From positions 1,612,001-1,676,000 of the forward strand of contig NZ_CP163423.1 in the NCBI RefSeq assembly GCF_041429785.1: DNA of 64,000 nt. Direction: 5' to 3'. The stretch's first letter is position 1, and each line of letters starts with the position of its first letter. Below are positions 3 to 5,695 of the stretch, piece by piece. Made by a program: the position numbers and the translations under genes. The notes under the pieces are model-generated. The model did not search any database and had not been told where the DNA came from. It was given only the letters and a program-made list of their open reading frames with translations. Source of the stretch: Fretibacter rubidus. Its GTDB lineage: Bacteria; Pseudomonadota; Alphaproteobacteria; Caulobacterales; Maricaulaceae.

Positions 3-572
3 CAGTTTACCCATGAAAAACTGCCCCTCATCACCGTCACATCCGGGTCAAATAGTGTTAGCTATAACGGCTTTCTGTTCTCCACGGGGGCCATTCCGAT
101 GATCACGCAATACACCAAGCAGAAGCTGCATAAGCGCGGCATTGGTGGTTCGCCAGCCGTCATTGGCGGTATTGTACGTGGGGTGAGCGGGCAGCGCGCA
201 GATGTGATGCACCCGACTCCCATCACACTGACCATAGACGGCGGCACGCCAATATCAGACAATCATTTAGGCACTGTTCTGACCACACTACCCAGCCTTT
301 TTAAAGGGCTGGATCCCTTTTGGGGTGAAGGCGACGGTGAATTACGCCTGACATATGCCAAGGGTGACGCGCGGCGACTACTGTCAAATATCGTCAGCCT
401 GTGGCGCGGACAAAAAAACATCGATAGAACTGCGGATGGCCTCAGCAGCTATAACGCTAGCCAGATAGACTTTAATTACGCTGGCGATGTTGTTCTCGAC
501 GGCGAAACGCTTGACCTGCTTGGCCCTAAATTCACAGTAACGCCCTCACGACCCGTGAGCTTCCTATGGTAA
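3..572 (+). CDS. Lipid kinase of the diacylglycerol kinase family, C-terminal part (probable ceramide kinase)
   Basis: The reading frame is open from the first bases of the window, so the N-terminal nucleotide-binding half lies upstream. The visible ~190 residues match the C-terminal beta-sandwich lobe of DAGK/YegS-like lipid kinases: a YNGF/STGAIP stretch, a glycine-rich GIGGSPAVIGGI segment, then alternating beta strands ending in a 'DGE' turn (VVLDGETLDL). The stop overlaps the start of the next gene by 7 bases (566-572), so the two are probably co-translated. Because the next genes are ceramide synthesis genes, the likely substrate is ceramide rather than diacylglycerol. This is by analogy with the Caulobacter ceramide kinase CpgB, which is encoded beside spt. 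Family call is secure; substrate is inferred. Confidence 0.8.
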   Translation, partial: QFTHEKLPLITVTSGSNSVSYNGFLFSTGAIPMITQYTKQKLHKRGIGGSPAVIGGIVRGVSGQRADVMHPTPITLTIDGGTPISDNHLGTVLTTLPSLFKGLDPFWGEGDGELRLTYAKGDARRLLSNIVSLWRGQKNIDRTADGLSSYNASQIDFNYAGDVVLDGETLDLLGPKFTVTPSRPVSFLW

Positions 573-1513
573 ATCCAACTCCCGCTAATCCAGACCCGCT
601 TATTGCGCTCCTTAAACATTACGATCACGTAGAGCCGAGCGCACGGGTCAAGACGGTCTGTGATGCCATATCAAAGCGCCATAACGGTCACGTTCTGGGA
701 TTTGTCTATTACGGCTCGTCTCTGCGCGATATGAACAATGCCGATAAAATGCTCGATTTTTATGTCCTGATTGATAGCTACCGCAAAACACATAAAAACC
801 CGCTGCGCGCAGCTTTAAACGCGATGATACCGCCTGCGGTTTATTATCACGAAATGACACATCAGGACGGGGTCCTAACCACCTGTAAATATTCGCTAAT
901 ATCGATTAAGGCCTTTGAAAACCGCGCGACATCAAAGGCGTTGTTGTCGACAGTTTGGGGGCGTTTCTCCCAGCCTTGCGTCATGTTGTTTCCGAAAGAT
1001 GACACTGTTAATGACCGTATTATGCAGGCCCGCGCCAAGGCTGTGCGTCATATTGCAAGCGAGACGATACCGCTGCTGGAGGGCCCTGTTGATACGGCGA
1101 CGTTCTGGGCGCGGGGGTTTCGTGAAAGCTACCGCACAGAATTACGGCCTGAGAGCTCTGACGGACGATCACGCGAGATTGTTGCCCGTTATCAAGAGCG
1201 CTATGACGCCATTATGGCAGAGTTGTTCGGCGCAGCAGACGAAAGCCTTTACGCCCTGCCCCCTGTATCAGCGGGTGCGAAACGCCGCTGCAAAACGCGG
1301 TGGGCGTTCCGCCGTATGTTGGGCAAACCTATGACCGCTATACGCCTTATCAACAATGCGGCGACATTTGACGGCGGGCTTGATTACGTACTTCGGAAGC
1401 TTAAAAACCACTCTGGCGTCACAATAGAGCCAACCTCATTTCAAAGGAAACATCCCGTGATTTGCGCCCCCGTATTAGGCTGGAAACTATGGCGCAAAGG
1501 CGCGTTTCGCTAG
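566..1513 (+). CDS. Nucleotidyltransferase-like protein of the sphingolipid locus (Tam41-like motif)
   Basis: 315 aa, no signal peptide and no membrane segment. Residues ~45-70 read VYYGSSL followed by LDFYVLID. A G-S pair followed by spaced acidic residues is the layout of pol-beta-type nucleotidyltransferases and resembles the GYGS...D-F-x-x-x-D pattern of Tam41 CDP-diacylglycerol synthases. The rest is rich in Arg and His and gave no recognised domain. It overlaps the lipid kinase upstream and converges on the ceramide operon, stopping 4 bases from the spt stop codon. Inference: it acts on the phosphorylated ceramide, perhaps activating it with a nucleotide on the way to an anionic headgroup such as ceramide phosphoglycerate. 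The biochemical role is unproven. Confidence 0.7.
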   Translation: MVNPTPANPDPLIALLKHYDHVEPSARVKTVCDAISKRHNGHVLGFVYYGSSLRDMNNADKMLDFYVLIDSYRKTHKNPLRAALNAMIPPAVYYHEMTHQDGVLTTCKYSLISIKAFENRATSKALLSTVWGRFSQPCVMLFPKDDTVNDRIMQARAKAVRHIASETIPLLEGPVDTATFWARGFRESYRTELRPESSDGRSREIVARYQERYDAIMAELFGAADESLYALPPVSAGAKRRCKTRWAFRRMLGKPMTAIRLINNAATFDGGLDYVLRKLKNHSGVTIEPTSFQRKHPVICAPVLGWKLWRKGAFR

Positions 1514-1517
1514 GCCG

Positions 1518-2747
1518 TTATTCTGCCGCCTGCATTTTAGTCATCATGGACTGCATCATTGACGCTTGGTTCGTCTTCAAATCACCAAAAGCTTTGATGA
1601 TTTGATTGATGTCCTCTTCTGTATGAGCCGCCGACAGACTAATCCGAAGTAAGCTAGAGCTTTGCGGCGTCCCAGGCGGTACAGCCAAATTCACGTAAAC
1701 ACCGCTTTCAATCAGTGCGTTCCATTCCATGGCCGCGACCGCCTCATTCGGACGGCGCACAGCAATAACGGGGCTAGGCTCAGCACATAGATCATAGTCC
1801 ATAGCCGCCAAACCAGCGTGCAGTTGCGCGGCGCGGTCTTTCAAATTCTGCCGCAGATGCGCGCCTGTTTTAACCTTTTCAACAGCCGCTCTTGCTGCGC
1901 AAATATTAGACGGCGTGGCACTAGCGGTAAACATATAGGGTCGCATAACCTTGCGTGTGATTTCAAATTCCGGGTGCTTAGACGCACAAAACCCGCCAAC
2001 AGAGGCGAGTGATTTTGAAAATGTGCCAGAGATAAAATCAATTTTATCAAGCACACCTTGTTCCTCGGCGATACCGCAGCCCGTGGGGCCGAACACGCCG
2101 TAGCTATGGGCTTCGTCAATGTATAGATAGCCGCCGTGACGGTGCGTAACATCCACAAATTCATCAACGGGCGCTATGTCGCCGAACATGGAATACATGC
2201 CCTCAATCACGACAAGCGCGTTGCCGCCCTCAATCTCGCCTTGGCGGCGCAGTCGTTTGTCTAGGTCTTCGGGACTATTATGACGGAACCGAATGGTCGA
2301 TGCGCCCGTCAGCCGCGTGCCGTCGATGATACAGGCATGCGCGTCAGCATCCATAAAGATGATATCTTTATCGCCCGCAAGGCCCGCAATGGCCGCCAAA
2401 TTCGTCTGATAACCCGTAGTAAAAACCACACAGCTTGGCATGCCCAAATGCTCCGCTAGGGCGTTTTCCAAATCAATATGTTCGTGGTAGCTGCCGTTGG
2501 CTACGCGCGAGCCTGTGGTGCCCGTGCCGTGGCGCGTCACCGCGTCTTTGGCCGCTGCCATACAGTCTTCGTCAAATGTTAGGCCGAGGTAGTTATTGGT
2601 ACCCGCGAGCAGGATTTCGCGGTTGCCGACGCGGCCTTTGGTGGCCGATAAAATATCGTCAAATTGAACACCCAATGCGTCTTTGCCGATTTTCATCATC
2701 ATATCGACGCGGGATTGTAACGGGGCGTATTTATCAAAAAGAGACAT
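1518..2747 (-). CDS. spt: Serine palmitoyltransferase (alpha-oxoamine synthase)
   Basis: 409 aa. PLP-dependent enzyme condensing serine with an activated long acyl chain to 3-ketosphinganine, the first step of sphingolipid synthesis. Visible family features: GTNNYLGL near the N-terminus, TGSRVANGSYHEHIDLE, the cofactor-binding DEAHSYG (Asp211, His214) and the Schiff-base lysine in GTFSKS (Lys245). An upstream in-frame start at 2792 would overlap the acyl carrier gene. The start at 2747 is preferred because it has an AGG ribosome site in the 13-base gap and gives the usual N-terminus. The family also includes KBL, 5-aminolevulinate synthase and BioF. The adjacent acyl carrier protein, reductase and acyl-AMP ligase point to Spt. 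Last gene of the operon. Confidence 0.93.
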   Translation of the reverse strand: MSLFDKYAPLQSRVDMMMKIGKDALGVQFDDILSATKGRVGNREILLAGTNNYLGLTFDEDCMAAAKDAVTRHGTGTTGSRVANGSYHEHIDLENALAEHLGMPSCVVFTTGYQTNLAAIAGLAGDKDIIFMDADAHACIIDGTRLTGASTIRFRHNSPEDLDKRLRRQGEIEGGNALVVIEGMYSMFGDIAPVDEFVDVTHRHGGYLYIDEAHSYGVFGPTGCGIAEEQGVLDKIDFISGTFSKSLASVGGFCASKHPEFEITRKVMRPYMFTASATPSNICAARAAVEKVKTGAHLRQNLKDRAAQLHAGLAAMDYDLCAEPSPVIAVRRPNEAVAAMEWNALIESGVYVNLAVPPGTPQSSSLLRISLSAAHTEEDINQIIKAFGDLKTNQASMMQSMMTKMQAAE

Positions 2748-2760
2748 AGATTTGACCTGA

Positions 2761-3009
2761 TTAAGACGTGAGTTCGGTAATAGCGTTGACAAGCTCGCCG
2801 ACTGTTTTGATGTCGGATACTAATTCCATCGGAATAGAAATATCATAGTGATCTTCTAATCCCATAACCAAATCAAACACAGCGACGCTGTCGACTTCCA
2901 AATCCGACACAATACCGCTGGTCAGTTTAATCGGACGGTTTTCAGGATTATAGGGCTTTAGCAATTCACAGATTTTATCGAAAATCTCATCACGGGTTGG
3001 CGCGGTCAT
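2761..3009 (-). CDS. acpR: Dedicated acyl carrier protein of sphingolipid synthesis
   Basis: 82 aa acidic four-helix carrier. The phosphopantetheine attachment serine is Ser41 in EVDSVAVFDLV, which replaces the DSL of housekeeping AcpP with DSV. It lies 13 bases upstream of spt and 7 bases downstream of the reductase gene, inside the ceramide operon. Inferred role: carries the acyl chain loaded by the upstream fatty acyl-AMP ligase and presents it to serine palmitoyltransferase, as proposed for the Caulobacter locus. The symbol is taken from that locus by position and similarity. Confidence 0.88.
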   Translation of the reverse strand: MTAPTRDEIFDKICELLKPYNPENRPIKLTSGIVSDLEVDSVAVFDLVMGLEDHYDISIPMELVSDIKTVGELVNAITELTS

Positions 3010-3016
3010 AAAATAC

Positions 3017-3937
3017 CTATGATTTAGTGTCAGACCGATATGCGGCCAAAGTTTGGGACAGACGATCTGCCATAGACGTATCGCTTTGAATCAACGTCTC
3101 ACTACGCCAATCGTCATAGAGGAATTCTCGCAATTTTCCTAGGGTCAAGTGGCCGCGGCCAAAGCTCAATGACAGCGCAGACGTAACAGCTGCAACGGGG
3201 TATAAAACACTTAACGGAATAGGCACCGCTTTGACAGGTTTGCCAACAGCCTCTGACGCCATTTGCGCAAATTCTGGCCACGTTATCTGCCCCACAGTCG
3301 CTGGCGACACTGTCTGGCCGTCATAATCGCCTTTGACCGCGCGGGTGATCAGGTCATTCGCCAAGTCCTGCACGGCGACCAGTGAAAGATAACGCTCCCG
3401 CCACCCCCGACCGCCCGGTGCAGGGAGAAAACCACGGTCTATGGCCGAAATAATAGGTTTTGTTGCCTCATCCCCGGGCCCAAATACCGCTGGCGCACGA
3501 ATGACCGATAAAGGCCCCGAATAGGCGTCCTCCACCGCATCTTCGCCCGCCCGCTTTGACGCTGCGTAAGGGGACAACTCAGGCGCGCGGGCCGCCATGG
3601 ATGAAAGCAAAACAAAACGCTCAATGCGCGAGTCATTACATGTCTTGGCCAAATCAGCGCTGGCCGTCACATTAACGGCGTCAAAGGCAGCACGATTGCG
3701 CGCTTTGATGAGGCCAGCCATATGCAAGATGACGTCGGCCCCCTCTATGAACCCGGCGTCGTTATCGCCCAAAGCCCCCTTAAAGATCGTCAAGCGCGGA
3801 TGACTTAAATTATTTAATTTCAATGGGTTGCGAGCCAAAGCTCTCACGCGATAGCCAGCCGCAAGTGCGGCGGTTATAACATGCCCGCCAACAAACCCTG
3901 TGCCGCCCGTAATGGCAATGAGCGGTGCGTCGGTCAC
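3017..3937 (-). CDS. cerR: NAD(P)-dependent ceramide reductase-like epimerase/dehydrogenase
   Basis: 306 aa extended short-chain dehydrogenase. The N-terminal Rossmann motif GGTGFVG is at residues 11-17, a catalytic serine pair near 112-113, and the Tyr124-x3-Lys128 pair sits in PYAASK. The C-terminal third carries a hydrophobic segment around residues 240-260 (LSVLYPVAAVTSALSLSF) that could associate with the membrane. In Caulobacter the equivalent gene reduces the 3-keto group of the oxidised ceramide after N-acylation. Here it is the second gene of the operon, 6 bases after the acyl-AMP ligase and 7 bases before acpR. Family certain; exact substrate inferred from neighbours. Confidence 0.88.
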   Translation of the reverse strand: MTDAPLIAITGGTGFVGGHVITAALAAGYRVRALARNPLKLNNLSHPRLTIFKGALGDNDAGFIEGADVILHMAGLIKARNRAAFDAVNVTASADLAKTCNDSRIERFVLLSSMAARAPELSPYAASKRAGEDAVEDAYSGPLSVIRAPAVFGPGDEATKPIISAIDRGFLPAPGGRGWRERYLSLVAVQDLANDLITRAVKGDYDGQTVSPATVGQITWPEFAQMASEAVGKPVKAVPIPLSVLYPVAAVTSALSLSFGRGHLTLGKLREFLYDDWRSETLIQSDTSMADRLSQTLAAYRSDTKS

Positions 3938-3943
3938 TTAAAT

Positions 3944-5695
3944 TTAGACAGTATCAGATTTGACGATTTTCATCGGGGTTTCGTCGAGCAAGTCGATGAT
4001 CTGACCCGTGACAAATTTCTCTTTTACGCGTGCACGCGACAGCTTGCCTGAACTAGTGATAATCATGGTGCCACGCGGAACCAGTTGCAATTTCACAGGG
4101 ACACCGACTTCTAGGCGAATGGCCGCTGTTACAGCCGTGTAGATCTCATCCAGCAATTGCGGGTCACGCGTTCGGCATTCCAGCAGAAGCATGATGTTTT
4201 TCTCATCACCTGCCCCGCCCGTCGCAAATGAACAGGCAAGGCCACAGCGGTGCGGTGCCGCTGCCTGTGCGGCCCATTCAATGTCTTGTGGCCAGATATT
4301 GCGCCCATGCCACAGGATTAAGTCTTTAAACCGACCCGTAACCACTAATTGGTCTTCTAACCAGTAGCCCAAGTCACCGGTGTTGAGCCAACCATCTTTG
4401 GAAAATGATGCCTCTGTCGCCTGTTTATTGCGGAAATACCCCGGCGATACGCTAGGCCCCTTGAGGAAGACTTGTCCAACTTGTTTTTGGCCCAAGACGT
4501 CACCGTCAAAATTACGGATTTCAATGGCGTGATCAGGCAACACTGTACCGCAAGCGACAAATGTGCGTTTTTGCTCGTCAGGCGTCAAATCGCTTGCCTC
4601 GACGGCTTCGGATGTGCGCTCATAACGGCCCATATCAATTGTATGTTTTAATAACCCCTGCCCGAAAGGCGCGAATGTGGCCGCCAAAGTTGTCTCTGCC
4701 AAGCCGTAACTCGGCTTGAACGCATCCTCAGCAAACCCCATAGGACCAAATGTTTTGGCAAATTCCGTTAACGGTTCAGGACGCACCATATCACCGCCAA
4801 TACCGGCTGCACGCCAGCTGGAGAGATCAAGCTCTCTGTCCTCGCGCCAACGGCGCACGCAAAGCTCGTATCCAAAGGTTGGGCTATAAGACAGTGTACC
4901 TTTGTGATCAGAAATAAGCTGCAACCACGTCATCGGACGGCGCGTAAAGTCTTGCGGATCAAGATAATCCACGGTCAGCTGGCTCATCATCGGCGCAATC
5001 ATGAAGCCAATCAGGCCCATATCATGATACATCGGAAGCCAAGTGGTGCCGCGGTCATCCTCTTTCATTTGCATGCCGTCACGGGTAATGCCGCGACAAT
5101 TAGACGACACAGAAAACTGCGTGCCCAAAATGCCCTTTGGCGAGCTAGAGCTACCAGATGAATATTGGATATAGCACAAGCCGTCAGGACCGTGCGGACG
5201 TAAGTTGTCACCCTGTGGTAGGGTAAGCACATCCTCAAAACTAATCACTGGAACATTGGTATCGTTGAGCGCGGAACTCATGATGCTTTCCATGCTGGCG
5301 GGCGTGAATAACGCGTGAAAATCGCCTGTTTCGGCCATACGCTGTAATTGACGTTCATAGCTACTGCGTCCACCGAGCGTTACAGGTAGCGGAAGCGGCG
5401 CTGGGACTAGCCCTGCATATTGGCAAGCGAAGAACAGCACGGCAAATTCTGGCGAACTGACAGCCGCAATGCCAATGCGCGCGTCTTTATCCGCAAATTT
5501 CACAAGGCGCTTAGCCACATCAACCGCACGCTCACGAAGCTCACGATACGGCAGCGCCGTTTTCAGGTCGCCCTTGCCTGTGTAAAAGTTAAATCCTGTG
5601 TCACAGGTCGCGGCATAATCAAGGCCGTCACAAAGCGTCGGAAAATCAGAATGGATAATGGGTTTCGACCGCAGGGTCGGTGTTGGCATTGTCAT
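3944..5695 (-). CDS. Fatty acyl-AMP ligase / acyl-ACP synthetase of the ceramide operon
   Basis: 583 aa adenylate-forming enzyme. The phosphate-binding loop YIQYSSGSSSSPKG is at about residues 175-188, followed by PMYHDMGLIG and the conserved GYFRN and LNTGDLGYW motifs. The YHDMGLIG block and ~580 aa length are typical of fatty acyl-AMP ligases (FAAL), which pass the acyl-AMP to an acyl carrier protein rather than CoA. It is the first gene of the four-gene ceramide operon, so it probably charges the downstream carrier protein. A second in-frame ATG at 5689 is possible. No frameshift or missing motif seen. Confidence 0.92.
   Translation of the reverse strand: MTMPTPTLRSKPIIHSDFPTLCDGLDYAATCDTGFNFYTGKGDLKTALPYRELRERAVDVAKRLVKFADKDARIGIAAVSSPEFAVLFFACQYAGLVPAPLPLPVTLGGRSSYERQLQRMAETGDFHALFTPASMESIMSSALNDTNVPVISFEDVLTLPQGDNLRPHGPDGLCYIQYSSGSSSSPKGILGTQFSVSSNCRGITRDGMQMKEDDRGTTWLPMYHDMGLIGFMIAPMMSQLTVDYLDPQDFTRRPMTWLQLISDHKGTLSYSPTFGYELCVRRWREDRELDLSSWRAAGIGGDMVRPEPLTEFAKTFGPMGFAEDAFKPSYGLAETTLAATFAPFGQGLLKHTIDMGRYERTSEAVEASDLTPDEQKRTFVACGTVLPDHAIEIRNFDGDVLGQKQVGQVFLKGPSVSPGYFRNKQATEASFSKDGWLNTGDLGYWLEDQLVVTGRFKDLILWHGRNIWPQDIEWAAQAAAPHRCGLACSFATGGAGDEKNIMLLLECRTRDPQLLDEIYTAVTAAIRLEVGVPVKLQLVPRGTMIITSSGKLSRARVKEKFVTGQIIDLLDETPMKIVKSDTV

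Follow-up and report, generated by a model that had tools for sequence, protein, structure and literature searches.

The window analysed here is a stretch of 64,000 nucleotides (C1:1612001-1676000) of the genome G000, which is 3.45 Mb in a single contig. Its first base cuts a gene cluster that extends ~8.5 kb further upstream, and the upstream DNA was read as L002 (C1:1600001-1620000), in which window position equals L002 position minus 12000. Ceramide and headgroup genes are found on both sides of the window edge, comprising five ceramide genes, second copies of lptF and lptG, and genes for a flippase, CpgA, a MobA-like nucleotidyltransferase and a HAD phosphatase. Positions without a prefix are those of the window:

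L002:3487-4173, minus strand: HAD-IB phosphatase
L002:4170-5333, minus strand: CpgA, CDP-alcohol transferase
L002:5334-6728, minus strand: flippase-like protein, without a Pfam match and named by identity and position relative to Caulobacter-type clusters
L002:6725-7546, minus strand: MobA-like nucleotidyltransferase of the CC_1153 type
L002:7500-8663 (window about -4500 to -3337), minus strand: CerS, ceramide synthase, without a Pfam match and named in the same way as the flippase
L002:8722-9240, minus strand: DUF2141 protein
L002:9348-10556, plus strand: LptF, second copy
L002:10556-11641, plus strand: LptG, second copy
L002:11646-12572, plus strand: cpgB-type ceramide kinase, 308 aa, with its C-terminal part in the window (frame 3-572)
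566-1513, plus strand: cpgC, Tam41-like nucleotidyltransferase by predicted fold
1518-2747, minus strand: spt, serine palmitoyltransferase (NCBIfam equivalog NF047599, 549 bits, cut-off 500)
2761-3009, minus strand: acpR, specialised acyl carrier protein (acyl carrier protein models, E ~4e-14; carrier-serine motif VDS)
3017-3937, minus strand: cerR, 3-oxo-sphinganine/ceramide reductase (NAD-dependent epimerase/reductase models; CerR position; 31-35% identity to Caulobacter-type CerR)
3944-5695, minus strand: aasR, fatty acyl-AMP ligase/acyl-AcpR synthetase (NCBIfam NF006624, 665 bits, cut-off 600; 43-44% identity to Caulobacter-type AasR)

The reference for this gene set is the Caulobacter crescentus cluster CC_1168-CC_1152 for ceramide phosphoglycerate (CPG) and ceramide diphosphoglycerate (CPG2) (Olea-Ozuna 2024, PMC11324152; CpgB, PMC10331486; CpgD, PMC12275187). 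Three genomes from another family of the order (L045, L046 and L047), termed Caulobacter-type by gene order only, reproduce the published C. crescentus order CC_1152-CC_1167: CpgD, CC_1153, CerS, LptG2, LptF2, CC_1157, CC_1158, cpgA-cpgB-cpgC facing spt-acpR-cerR-aasR, the flippase and CC_1167. The Caulobacter cluster and that of G000 have in common the five ceramide genes, cpgA, cpgB, cpgC, the CC_1153-type nucleotidyltransferase, lptF2/lptG2 and the flippase, with cpgB-cpgC facing spt-acpR-cerR-aasR in both. In G000, however, cpgD is present as a remnant only, there is a HAD-IB phosphatase instead of the CC_1158 metallophosphoesterase, the pair lptF2-lptG2 immediately precedes cpgB, and cpgA is placed with the flippase. 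Clusters of the Hyphomonas neptunium type likewise have no CC_1158 orthologue, but the other 16 genes are reported there, including the cpgD orthologue CC_1152 that G000 has lost (PMC11324152). The G000 locus adds one more member to the known type of CPG cluster, one from which cpgD has been lost naturally.

All features that an earlier note, made from the window alone, had placed between 3 and 5695 lie at their assigned positions. Its reading of the acyl-AMP ligase, reductase, carrier protein and serine palmitoyltransferase as Caulobacter-type ceramide genes is borne out by NF006624, NF047599 and identities of 31-44%, and both gene content and gene order agree with the anionic sphingolipid cluster of Caulobacter type that it proposed. 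The transfer from Caulobacter holds for the CPG cluster but fails for the CPG2 part, cpgD being deleted. The ceramide synthase gene is outside the window, as the note had said, but it was overlooked just upstream at L002:7500-8663, and all five ceramide genes (aasR, cerR, acpR, spt and cerS) are present at the locus. The open frame of spt reaches a TTG at 2792, while homologues begin at the ATG at 2747; spt and cpgC are arranged tail to tail with 4 bases between their ends. G000 also encodes LpxC, so the locus gives no hint of life without lipid A, and a sphingolipid-only outer membrane is not suggested for this organism.

Inspection of the DNA upstream of the window, as the note had proposed, supplied headgroup genes and the N-terminus of the kinase, whose gene starts 354 bases before the window and overlaps cpgC by 7 bases. 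The kinase facing the ceramide operon had been assigned to the DAGK family and matches DAGK_cat (E 2.8e-10); it is 27% identical to Caulobacter-type CpgB (E 3e-13). Bacterial CpgB is recognised by a GGDG motif without the eukaryotic CxxxCxxC motif, and its ceramide kinase activity is proven in Caulobacter (PMC10331486). The G000 protein carries GGDG in its upstream part, and CxxxCxxC is absent from its sequence. Judged by comparison with Caulobacter-type clusters, the window kinase is CpgB, a putative ceramide kinase. Homologues of cpgB and cpgC adjoin in all 75 loci fetched from the order, including loci without other cluster genes nearby, an adjacency that exceeds chance by far.

The same comparison identifies 566-1513 as CpgC: the protein is 25-31% identical (E 1e-35 to 1e-39) to Caulobacter-type CpgC, the CC_1161 orthologue, and its gene lies beside cpgB, facing spt. 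The 566-1513 protein matched no family in Pfam, NCBIfam or PADLOC scans. The Tam41 profile PF09139, put forward earlier as a means of recognising the protein, does not match it and found no CpgC in 299 genomes; CpgC is therefore described as Tam41-like by fold and not filed with the curated Tam41 family. When profiles from three CpgC alignments were run against PDB sequences, they returned sub-significant or short matches only. Among these, S. pombe Tam41 aligned in register at YGS and M(I/L)DF, with VYY, KY and GRFxxP in the same order, at an E-value of 0.89 that is not significant. Matches to gH and tail-sheath proteins were taken as chance, and that to PDB 9xbd reflects just a generic GS...D nucleotidyltransferase motif.

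An AlphaFold model of CpgC was built from 13 sequences, from the window and related loci (pLDDT 85.6, pTM 0.83). The predicted structure shows the Tam41 fold, with a nucleotidyltransferase and a winged-helix domain, and Tam41 is its best match in the PDB, as the earlier note would have led one to expect. Tam41 chains fill the top five rows of a Foldseek search against the PDB (E 1.3e-7 to 4.9e-7) and the top three rows of a structural alignment (Z 16.9, 15.6 and 14.9 over 212-225 residues), the best superposition covering 225 residues at 3.2 A. The next non-Tam41 family reached Z 6.7 over 110 residues, and on this contrast with Z 16.9 over 225 residues an antibiotic nucleotidyltransferase was ruled out. 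Like the CDP-diacylglycerol (CDP-DAG) synthase Tam41 (PDB 6ig2, 6ig4, 7ecd), modelled CpgC has a nucleotidyltransferase domain followed by a helical domain, the elements YGS...MLDF, K-Y and GRFxxP in the same order, a single invariant acid in strand 2 and a cationic C-terminus. It differs in its low identity (14-16%), in having no Pfam match and in a genomic context of ceramide-1-phosphate, not phosphatidic acid.

Residues invariant in 75 CpgC homologues are YGS (49-51), D64, Y66, P90, V92, K108, W131, R133, F134, Q136, Y189, E192, R194 and E196. In the strand-2 motif D64 is kept in 75/75 and residue 66 is Tyr in all, while D70 is variable. Of the YGS...D...D pattern that had suggested Tam41 to the earlier note, YGS and the first D are thus invariant and the fold is predicted to be Tam41-like, but the second D is not conserved. 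Of the three acidic residues usual for the fold, Tam41 itself retains just one (PMC11646218); in the strand-2 motif of CpgC, D64 is likewise the one acid kept. The C-terminal 80 residues of CpgC are cationic in all members (mean net charge +12, minimum +6), and Tam41 has a cationic membrane-binding C-terminal end (PMC7018664). The predicted fold and active-site pattern of CpgC point to the mode of action of a Tam41-like CDP-lipid synthase.

CpgC was found in 76/299 genomes of the order, with CerS alongside in 74 of the 76, and in 42/385 genomes across the class. The two genomes with CpgC and no CerS are the incomplete G258 and G126, which has spt, acpR, cerR and aasR beside cpgC. Two irregularities were seen among related clusters. 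Two separate frames of 202 and 164 aa make up the ceramide synthase gene at L052:14400-15552, perhaps as the result of a frameshift, in a cluster that is otherwise intact, and cerR was undetected in its usual place between aasR and acpR in L052, L079, L080, L081, L083 and L085. Caulobacter mutants without CC_1161 make neither CPG nor CPG2, and CpgC has been described as acting 'through a yet unidentified mechanism'. The idea of a nucleotide-activated ceramide is not new: the orthologue CC_1161 carries, according to Olea-Ozuna 2024, an InterPro domain of CDP-DAG synthases, and an NDP-activated ceramide was suggested there (PMC11324152). The predicted fold strengthens that proposal without proving it. 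A text search of the available literature found no paper on CDP-ceramide in bacteria.

CpgD is a proven CTP:phosphoglycerate cytidylyltransferase (PMC12275187), and the complete G000 genome holds no orthologue of it. In the order, 44 genomes have both CpgA and CpgD, and two have CpgA but no CpgD, namely G000 and the divergent G218; this pattern lends support to the published view that CpgA takes the CpgD product as its substrate. In both genus mates of G000 and in G277, cpgD directly follows the HAD gene. The corresponding slot in G000 is a 224-bp gap (L002:3263-3486), flanked by the HAD gene and a cyclopropane-fatty-acid-synthase-like gene. With four CpgD proteins as queries, the C-terminal residues of each aligned with the antisense strand of the gap (TWAELDILEDY*LCAALVGGNEIVR), at E-values from 4e-7 to 3e-6 when the gap was searched and from 4e-5 to 5e-4 when 20 kb were. 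This match marks the sequence in the gap as what is left of the 3' end of cpgD, decayed and with an internal stop, and cpgD is lost. CPG2 is therefore not expected in G000, where the other CPG2 genes, those for the CpgA CDP-alcohol transferase and the CC_1153-type nucleotidyltransferase, are present. A weak CpgD match at G000:C1:211532 was discarded, as it reads as MurU and has a tsaE-like gene upstream of it. The other NTP_transf_3 proteins of G000 read, by sequence recognition and length, as MobA, GlmU, IspDF, KdsB, RfbA, ManC and GalU, and a stand-in for CpgD is not apparent in this family; one of another fold might exist. CC_1167-like proteins lie beside clusters at L047:16910-18037, L048:133-1275 and L014:747-1967, two of the three showing similarity below threshold to CDP-glycerol glycerophosphotransferase (PF04464, E 0.003-0.02). 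CC_1167 was earlier called probably unrelated to the pathway; CDP-glycerate is since known to be made there.

Two phosphatase-type genes occur in these clusters. Among 75 loci, 31 have the HAD-IB phosphatase, 34 a CC_1158-like metallophosphoesterase, none both and 10 neither (Fisher p 1e-12, which is not an independent-sample probability, the genomes being related). The HAD protein may thus replace CC_1158 in a non-orthologous replacement of one phosphatase step. The flippase and CpgA form one frame of ~830 aa in nine genomes (G153, G247, G262, G277, G287, G029, G098, G299 and G300), both genus mates of G000 among them; the fused frame was seen at L005:1592-4096 and L006:1613-4126 and in L007, L009, L010, L011 and L013. 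This fusion suggests that headgroup addition may be coupled to flipping. In G000 the two genes are parted by an in-frame TAA and an immediate ATG (L002:5331-5336).

We favour, with a probability of about 0.6, a CPG cluster that uses a CDP-ceramide route through CpgC of predicted Tam41 fold and stops at CPG. AasR, AcpR, Spt, CerS and CerR would make dihydroceramide, and CpgB would phosphorylate it to ceramide-1-phosphate. We infer that CpgC then acts as a CTP:ceramide-1-phosphate cytidylyltransferase, moving CMP from CTP onto ceramide-1-phosphate to give CDP-ceramide. A further putative transferase would exchange CMP for (phospho)glycerate, a phosphatase, which in G000 might be the HAD protein, would trim the product to CPG, and the second LptF/LptG pair with the flippase would carry the lipid outwards. 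With cpgD deleted, G000 should end at CPG. The gene content, gene order, co-occurrence, predicted CpgC fold and cpgD remnant observed here stand beside what others have established in Caulobacter, namely the activities of CpgB and CpgD and the genetics of CPG and CPG2. A transferase using CDP-ceramide was not found; the CDP-alcohol transferase family in G000 consists of PgsA, a PgsA-like protein whose motif is altered and whose score lies below the PgsA model cut-off, and CpgA, and CpgA is dispensable for CPG in Caulobacter.

A shared predicted fold leaves the substrate of CpgC unfixed. Phosphatidic acid is the substrate of those Tam41 enzymes that have been tested, and CpgC might be a second CDP-DAG synthase of this kind with an indirect link to ceramide. 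We consider this unlikely, given that cpgC adjoins the ceramide kinase gene in every locus fetched, that CpgC keeps company with CerS in nearly all genomes that have it, and that loss of CC_1161 abolishes both CPG and CPG2 in Caulobacter. It is also improbable, to a similar degree, that CpgC joins glycerate directly to ceramide-1-phosphate without a nucleotide-activated ceramide. This was proposed earlier from mass spectrometry, and CpgB and CpgC are the only known requirements for CPG; yet direct attachment was judged energetically not very favourable by those who discussed it (PMC11324152), and CpgC is predicted to fold as a nucleotidyltransferase.

Other readings concern the headgroup branch in G000. 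The cpgD remnant with its internal stop, and the stop that cuts the flippase-CpgA fusion with an ATG at once behind it, could mean that the branch is decaying and that its remaining genes are partly relics. We think this quite improbable: the remaining frames are all intact, CpgA keeps its CDP-alcohol transferase motif and has not diverged faster than the CpgA of relatives (64% to G153 versus 61% for a genus mate), and unfused flippase and cpgA genes are also found in other members. With CpgA conserved at a normal rate, either the loss of cpgD is recent or CpgA has another donor. By its predicted model (pLDDT 70, moderate), CpgA resembles IPCT-DIPPS and PIP synthases. It shares with the IPCT-DIPPS/AF2299 CDP-alcohol transferases (PDB 4mnd, 4o6m) an N-terminal cytidylyltransferase-like domain and a CDP-alcohol transferase domain, but its N-terminal domain is short and has no Pfam nucleotidyltransferase match. 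By analogy with archaeal and mycobacterial inositol-lipid synthesis, one could imagine, as a long shot, that CpgA of G000, lacking CDP-glycerate, uses CDP-ceramide from CpgC and a small phosphate acceptor, and that the HAD protein removes the extra phosphate. The headgroup would then make a further, undescribed anionic sphingolipid.

The conversion of ceramide-1-phosphate to CPG belongs to a lipid pathway that enables some Gram-negatives to live without LPS and sets polymyxin sensitivity. The predicted Tam41 fold of CpgC reduces the 'unidentified mechanism' of this step to a one-tube assay with CTP and ceramide-1-phosphate. Whether CpgA depends on the CpgD product alone is put to a natural test in a strain that retains cpgA without cpgD, and CpgC, if it is indeed a Tam41-like enzyme, would give bacteria a route to CDP-ceramide.
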